Source of the DNA: an uncultured Hyphomicrobiales bacterium
GTDB lineage: Bacteria; Pseudomonadota; Alphaproteobacteria; Rhizobiales; TMED25
Assembly (NCBI GenBank): GCA_905181735.1
Contig: CAJIYR010000001.1
Span: forward strand, 124,001 to 188,000
DNA length: 64,000 nucleotides
Direction: 5' to 3'
Of the stretch, positions 25,709 through 39,136 are shown piece by piece; position 1 is the stretch's first letter, and each line of letters opens with the position of its first letter. A model generated the notes under the pieces. It ran no database searches. It was given only the letters and a program-made list of their open reading frames with translations, and was not told the DNA's origin. The position numbers and the translations under genes are program-made.

Positions 25709-25876
25709 ATGGCTAAAGCAGCAAGCATTAAAATTAAATTAGAAAGTACCGCAGGAACTGGATACTTTTATGTAACAAAAAAGAATTCAAGAACATTGAC
25801 TGAAAAGTTTGTCGTAAAAAAATATGATCCAGTTGCAAGAAAGCACGTTGAATTCAAAGAAACAAAAATTAAATAA
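25709..25876 (+). CDS. rpmG: 50S ribosomal protein L33
   Basis: My translation (not in ORF track): [55 protein letters not shown]. Confidence 0.95.
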
Positions 25877-25895: not shown

Positions 25896-26076
25896 TTCAA
25901 TTCATAATTGAAAAGCTGGTTGGTTGCATGCAATCTTCTTATGGAGGAGGCCATGTACAATTACAAACAACCAACCCTAAACCCCACGGACCCAGGAGAT
26001 GCGGCGGACCTGAGCAACTCCGTAGGGAAACTCATAAAAACAGAAGTTGGTTATTAATTTATAAAAATTATAAATT
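25896..26076. other. unassigned structured element: candidate small ORF (25953..26057, +, MYNYKQPTLNPTDPGDAADLSNSVGKLIKTEVGY) and/or structured sRNA
   Basis: Perfect stem GGTTGGTTG(25918-25926)/CAACCAACC(25968-25976); CCCACGGA(25983-25990)/TCCGTAGGG(26019-26027, one bulge) with inner CAGG/CCTG; flanking IRs TTCAATT/AATTGAA and AATTTATAA/TTATAAATT; GC-richer than surroundings. Confidence 0.5.
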
Positions 26077-26147: not shown

Positions 26148-26522
26148 CTAAACCAAATATTCATTAACTTTATCTAAGAAAGGTTGCATTGATATAGGTT
26201 TTGACATGTAACCTTCACACCCTAGGGCAAGAATTTTATCTTTATCTTCCTGAAGAGCAAAAGCAGTTATTGCTATAATAGGGATATGAGATAAGCTGCT
26301 ATCTTCTTTAACCCATTTTATAATATCAAGGCCAGATATTTTTGGTAATTGTATATCCATAAGTATTAAATTTGGCATATTAACTTGTATGAGATTTAAC
26401 GCAGCAAGAGGATCCAAGCATTGTATGACTTCGCAATCTATAGTAATTAGAAGATCGTTAAATAATTTCATATTAAGTTCGTTGTCTTCAACAATAAGAA
26501 CTTTTCTATTTTTTATAGACAT
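26148..26522 (-). CDS. divK: single-domain response regulator, DivK-like
   Basis: 124-aa receiver only: 'KVLIVEDNELNMKLFNDLL', phospho-Asp 'PNLILMDIQLPKISGLD', 'PIIAITAFALQEDKDKILALGCEGYMSKPIS'. Confidence 0.85.
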   Translation of the reverse strand: MSIKNRKVLIVEDNELNMKLFNDLLITIDCEVIQCLDPLAALNLIQVNMPNLILMDIQLPKISGLDIIKWVKEDSSLSHIPIIAITAFALQEDKDKILALGCEGYMSKPISMQPFLDKVNEYLV

Positions 26523-26573: not shown

Positions 26574-26621
26574 TTGTAACATTATACAAATATATATTTA
26601 GATATTTGTATAATGTTACAA
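26574..26621. repeat. perfect 20-bp inverted repeat, 8-nt spacer
   Basis: TTGTAACATTATACAAATAT-atatttag-ATATTTGTATAATGTTACAA, between divergent divK and ridA-like genes. Confidence 0.95.
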
Positions 26622-38631: not shown

Positions 38632-39009
38632 TTATTTCTTTTTGCCTGCAATAGCTTTAGCTGGCCCTTTTCTAGTTCTTGCATTCGTGCTAGTTCTTTG
38701 ACCTCTTACTGGCAAGCCTCTTCTATGTCTTAAACCCTTATAACAACCTAAATCCATCATACCCTTTATGTTCATAGAAACCTGACGTCTCAAATCACCT
38801 TCAACAATATAGTCAGCATCAATAGCTTCACGAATTTGAATAACTTCCGAATCAGACAACTGATTCACTCTTTTTGTATTCTCAATATTTACTTTATTAC
38901 ATATTTCTACAGCCTTAGAGGGACCAATTCCATGAATACTCCTCAAAGCTATTAAAACACGTTTATTAGTTGGTATATTTACACCTGCAATACGAGCCAC
39001 TAAACACAC
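38632..39009 (-). CDS. rpsM: 30S ribosomal protein S13
   Basis: '[26 protein letters not shown]'; start may be the internal GTG (residue 4). Confidence 0.97.
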
Positions 39010-39136
39010 TCCTCTTTCAATTAACTACAAAAAAAATAAGACCGAATAACGATCGTCTAATTTAATATTTAAATATATATTACATTAACTATTATCATTA
39101 ACATAAATTGTAAAGAACTTCTGTAAATTAATATTA

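Follow-up and report, generated by a model that had tools for sequence, protein, structure and literature searches.

EcpR1 in rhizobia and in a marine lineage

What kind of element lies between the rpmG and divK genes of this marine bacterium? The closest described system is EcpR1, an sRNA described from rhizobia, where it slows the cell cycle during stress, and that, as EcpR1/SmelC291 of Sinorhizobium meliloti, corresponds to the Rfam family RF02500, Atu_C6 (PMC4414408, PMC3927594). The S. meliloti RNA consists of two stem-loops. The loop of SL1, UCCGCCGCAUCU, is strongly conserved; the stem of SL2 varies, and its loop carries a UCCUCG motif (PMC4414408). Its gene is placed between the divK-pleD operon and rpmG, and its SL1 loop pairs with the gcrA and dnaA mRNAs, which are repressed as a result (PMC4414408). 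For the putative EcpR1 of Methylosinus sporium 5, a transcript has been mapped (PMC12403871); the RNA described below is predicted from sequence.

Within the 64,000-nucleotide stretch of DNA analysed here (the window), we find an element that is almost certainly ecpR1, the gene of the trans-acting sRNA EcpR1, encoding a two-hairpin RNA on the minus strand of the divK/rpmG interval in marine Rhizobiales of the OCS116/TMED25 family. The kind of sRNA is already known; new is its member in a streamlined marine lineage, and a literature search on OCS116 and small RNA retrieved no report of EcpR1 in OCS116. With S. meliloti EcpR1, the element shares a full-length covariance-model match, an identical SL1 loop and the two-hairpin fold, as well as its orientation at a locus with divK on one side and rpmG on the other. 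The host, in contrast, has an A+T-rich, streamlined marine genome of 1.39 Mb. A cell-cycle and stress sRNA studied in plant symbionts has thus survived, at an unchanged locus and with a letter-identical pairing loop, the streamlining of an A+T-rich marine genome.

Family assignment and genomic locus

While the initial annotation had recognised no named family, a cmscan search against all Rfam yielded a single full-length match, to RF02500 (Atu_C6/EcpR1), running end to end along the minus strand from 26030 to 25913. No other Rfam family reached its gathering threshold on this stretch, and admitting E-values up to 1 added only chance-level matches to snoR23 and RsmY. The core of the sRNA gene and its two neighbours are as follows.

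25913..26030, minus strand: ecpR1 sRNA core (RF02500 model positions 1-113; cmscan 73.5 bits, gathering score 60 bits)
26148..26522, minus strand: divK-like single-domain response regulator, the 5′ neighbour, co-oriented with the sRNA (Pfam Response_reg, 2.7e-22)
25709..25876, plus strand: rpmG (ribosomal protein L33), the convergent 3′ neighbour (Pfam Ribosomal_L33, 1.7e-15)

Elsewhere in the window (38968-39074, minus strand), Rfam Alpha_RBS (RF00140) matched at the start of rpsM (S13) with a score of 39.6 against a cut-off of 38. Most letters that match in this alignment belong to the beginning of the rpsM reading frame, and the stem contains mismatches and is rich in A+T; by its sequence, this is probably not a true alpha-operon pseudoknot.

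The element is conserved in close relatives: RF02500 was detected in 13 of the 14 genomes of the OCS116/TMED25 family, the lone genome without a match being 73% complete. The family model was also found in 17 of 27 genomes from other families of the order, and in only 7 of 289 genomes drawn evenly across the class. An exact search with the family's SL1 sequence matched 12 named records, comprising OCS116 cluster single cells and metagenome-assembled genomes (MAGs), Rhizobiales bacterium TMED25, and Rhodobiaceae/Hyphomicrobiales MAGs. The genome of the window is accordingly assigned to this family of marine Rhizobiales. One family member (L027, genome G004), the only one in which the inner stem of SL1 has changed (G-U for A-U), scores 56.7 bits and falls under the Rfam cut-off. 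Its locus and sequence nonetheless clearly identify it as EcpR1, so that the Rfam threshold is slightly too strict for this lineage.

In all 13 family loci, ecpR1 has divK on its 5′ side and rpmG on its 3′ side. Unlike in S. meliloti, divK adjoins ecpR1 directly, without pleD. Might the element then be a divK 3′ UTR element or attenuator instead of a free sRNA? It does follow divK on the same strand, roughly 118 nt beyond the stop codon, and S. meliloti ecpR1 likewise comes after the divK-pleD operon. We nevertheless deem this unlikely, given that northern blots in S. meliloti revealed an independent transcription unit (PMC4414408) and that an A+T-rich, TATAAT-like stretch occurs 5′ of SL1 in most family members. 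Past SL2, on the other side of the RNA, no obvious U-rich intrinsic terminator was seen in most of the family, which counts against the ecpR1 assignment.

On the far side of divK, where this gene and a YjgF/RidA-like gene diverge, there is a near-perfect inverted repeat of 18-20 bp (26574-26619; GTAACATTATACAAATAT ... ATATTTGTATAATGTTAC). The sister species (L110) retains the palindrome, both arms having changed in a compensatory manner (GTATTATTATACAAATAT / ATATTTGTATAATAATAC). The repeat is a candidate operator or leader hairpin.

Conserved fold and exposed loops

The initial annotation had described four hairpins in a segment GC-richer than its flanks, and both observations hold. Inverted repeats are found at 25896-25912 (H1), 25918-25926/25968-25976 (H2), 25982-25990/26019-26027 (H3, with inner CAGG/CCTG arms at 25993-25996/26009-26012) and 26056-26076 (H4), and local GC content peaks at 0.44-0.50 across 25900-26049, compared to roughly 0.12-0.31 alongside. 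Folding of these repeats on the minus strand is not due to chance: the folding energy amounts to -55.8 kcal/mol (z = -3.5), with 1 of 200 shuffled sequences as good, whereas the plus-strand fold is unremarkable (z = -1.2). Judging from the aligned relatives, the conserved element comprises H2 and H3 only; H1 and H4 were considered as parts of it and excluded, since outside the sister species H1 is degraded and H4 lost.

Covariation supports the fold. Across an alignment of 24 sequences, drawn from the family and from other Rhizobiales, compensatory changes on both sides affect 12 of the 21 base pairs, and 97.5% of alignment cells are paired; none of 500 shuffles equalled this, and structures slid along the alignment gave at most three pairs changed on both sides. 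The two hairpins and their loops are:

25982..26027, minus strand: SL1 hairpin (H3), outer stem plus inner CAGG/CCUG stem (fold and covariation)
25997..26008, minus strand: SL1 loop UCCGCCGCAUCU, the same letters as the loop by which S. meliloti EcpR1 pairs with mRNAs (PMC4414408)
25918..25976, minus strand: SL2 hairpin (H2), covarying stem
25941..25954, minus strand: SL2 tip AUGG-CCUCCU-CCAU, an anti-Shine-Dalgarno-like hexaloop on a mini-stem (predicted unpaired in 13/13)

No letter of the SL1 loop differs among the 13 family members, and the loop is predicted to be unpaired (26008-25997; mean unpaired probability 0.99). That it was kept letter for letter through genome streamlining points to strong selection acting on it. 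The initial annotation had treated this inner loop of H3, with its second CUCCU, as secondary, but it is the main functional loop of the EcpR1 family.

In SL2, 6 of 8 stem pairs have changed on both sides. A variable second stem-loop with a UCCUCG-like loop is present, its loop reading CCUCCUCC in place of CCUCCUCG. At the tip, however, the marine RNA carries GGCCUCCUCC on a mini-stem, as opposed to UCCUCG in S. meliloti. The final letter of the motif is C, not G, in 13/13 family members, which allows AUGG/CCAU or UUGG/CCAA to close a CCUCCU hexaloop; the outermost pair of this mini-stem is A-U in four members and U-A in nine. The apical CCUCCU loop noticed initially is fully conserved and unpaired in the predicted folds of all 13, while the SL2 motif is partly paired in those of other Rhizobiales.

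CCUCCU in unpaired loops, similar to the anti-Shine-Dalgarno sequence of 16S rRNA, also occurs in alpha-r14/'cuckoo' sRNAs, the type to which the initial annotation had likened the element. The hexaloop exposed in every family member would suit such an RNA, acting solely via its CCUCCU. Yet RF02500 alone exceeds its Rfam gathering score, the most conserved stretch of the element is the SL1 loop rather than CCUCCU alone, and fold and locus match EcpR1 and differ from those of the cuckoo type, so that we regard this as a very improbable account.

The assignment as ecpR1 also agrees with the strand on which the structure pairs best. Of the 503 alignment cells, 491 pair when the minus strand is read, 61 of them as G-U, compared to 431 for the plus strand; the RNA is therefore encoded on the minus strand, as one of the two initial readings had it. 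The other reading, a small plus-strand protein of 34 codons with its start hidden in a hairpin, can be dismissed with near certainty, as can a 49-codon version starting at TTG. The window and its sister species do share an open frame in which GGAGGAGG closely precedes an ATG (ending 2 nt before it, not 5 nt as first proposed), but start, ribosome site and frame are confined to that pair within the family: the other 11 members lack a start codon, and a stop closes their frame a short way upstream. The changes keep minus-strand G-U pairing, not codons. Conservation of SL1 alone explains why relatives retain part of the amino-acid string NPTDPGDAADLSNS; the frame is a by-product of the strand antisense to this conserved hairpin.

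Putative targets and mechanism

By analogy with S. meliloti, the marine EcpR1 would be transcribed, induced by stress and engaged in mRNA repression. Most likely, it would expose the invariant, GC-rich SL1 loop to mRNAs, with the SL2 loop CCUCCU perhaps exposed as well. Pairing with the translation-start regions or leaders of mRNAs may then lead to their repression, and this, in turn, to slower growth or a slower cell cycle under stress.

Are gcrA and dnaA, both of which are present, among these mRNAs? In the gcrA leaders of six other Rhizobiales, pairing with the SL1 loop averaged -16.2 kcal/mol compared to -12.9 kcal/mol for shuffled loops (0/60 as good), and near-perfect complementary sites such as GUGCGGCGGACC occur there. 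In 12 family genomes, by contrast, there was no excess complementarity for gcrA (-9.9 versus -10.0 kcal/mol for shuffled loops) and no clear excess for dnaA (-10.9 versus -10.5 kcal/mol) by a test that uses simple energies without accessibility and guessed leader lengths, and that weak short-seed sites would escape. Pairing of dnaA was somewhat better in the two genomes of the window's genus (-13.3 kcal/mol each). Against a background of 65 window genes, dnaA fell within the lowest 8-22% and gcrA within 22-45%, depending on loop length, both unremarkable. Likewise, complements of the SL1 and SL2 loops (GRTGYGGYGGR and GGRGGRGGYYR, wobble allowed) were no more frequent in 11 family genomes than the reversed-pattern control; the sole complement site to recur in most of them was ecpR1 itself, and one internal coding match recurs in two near-identical genomes.

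The strong SL1-complementary site in the gcrA leaders of other Rhizobiales thus appears not to be evident in the gcrA or dnaA of the family, setting the lineage apart from S. meliloti, and these comparisons lend no apparent support to gcrA and dnaA as continuing EcpR1 targets. With no excess complementarity to either gene, the mechanism known from S. meliloti may not hold here for each individual target; with an identical SL1 loop in 13/13 members but no evident sites, the mode of action given here for EcpR1 is one carried over by homology. Tentatively, EcpR1 might have been rewired in OCS116/TMED25, a possibility to which we assign a minor share: the gcrA and dnaA sites would have been lost from A+T-rich leaders, the SL1 loop kept for other partners (short-seed mRNAs or a protein), and the SL2 tip fixed as an anti-Shine-Dalgarno hexaloop competing for ribosome-binding sites. 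A frozen sRNA loop whose known target sites are not visible offers a clean comparative case for target turnover.

As a minor observation on dnaA itself, the gene in the window's genome (locus L064) apparently starts with GTG, overlapping the end of the upstream frame (...LPWIQQ*), where other family members have an ATG.
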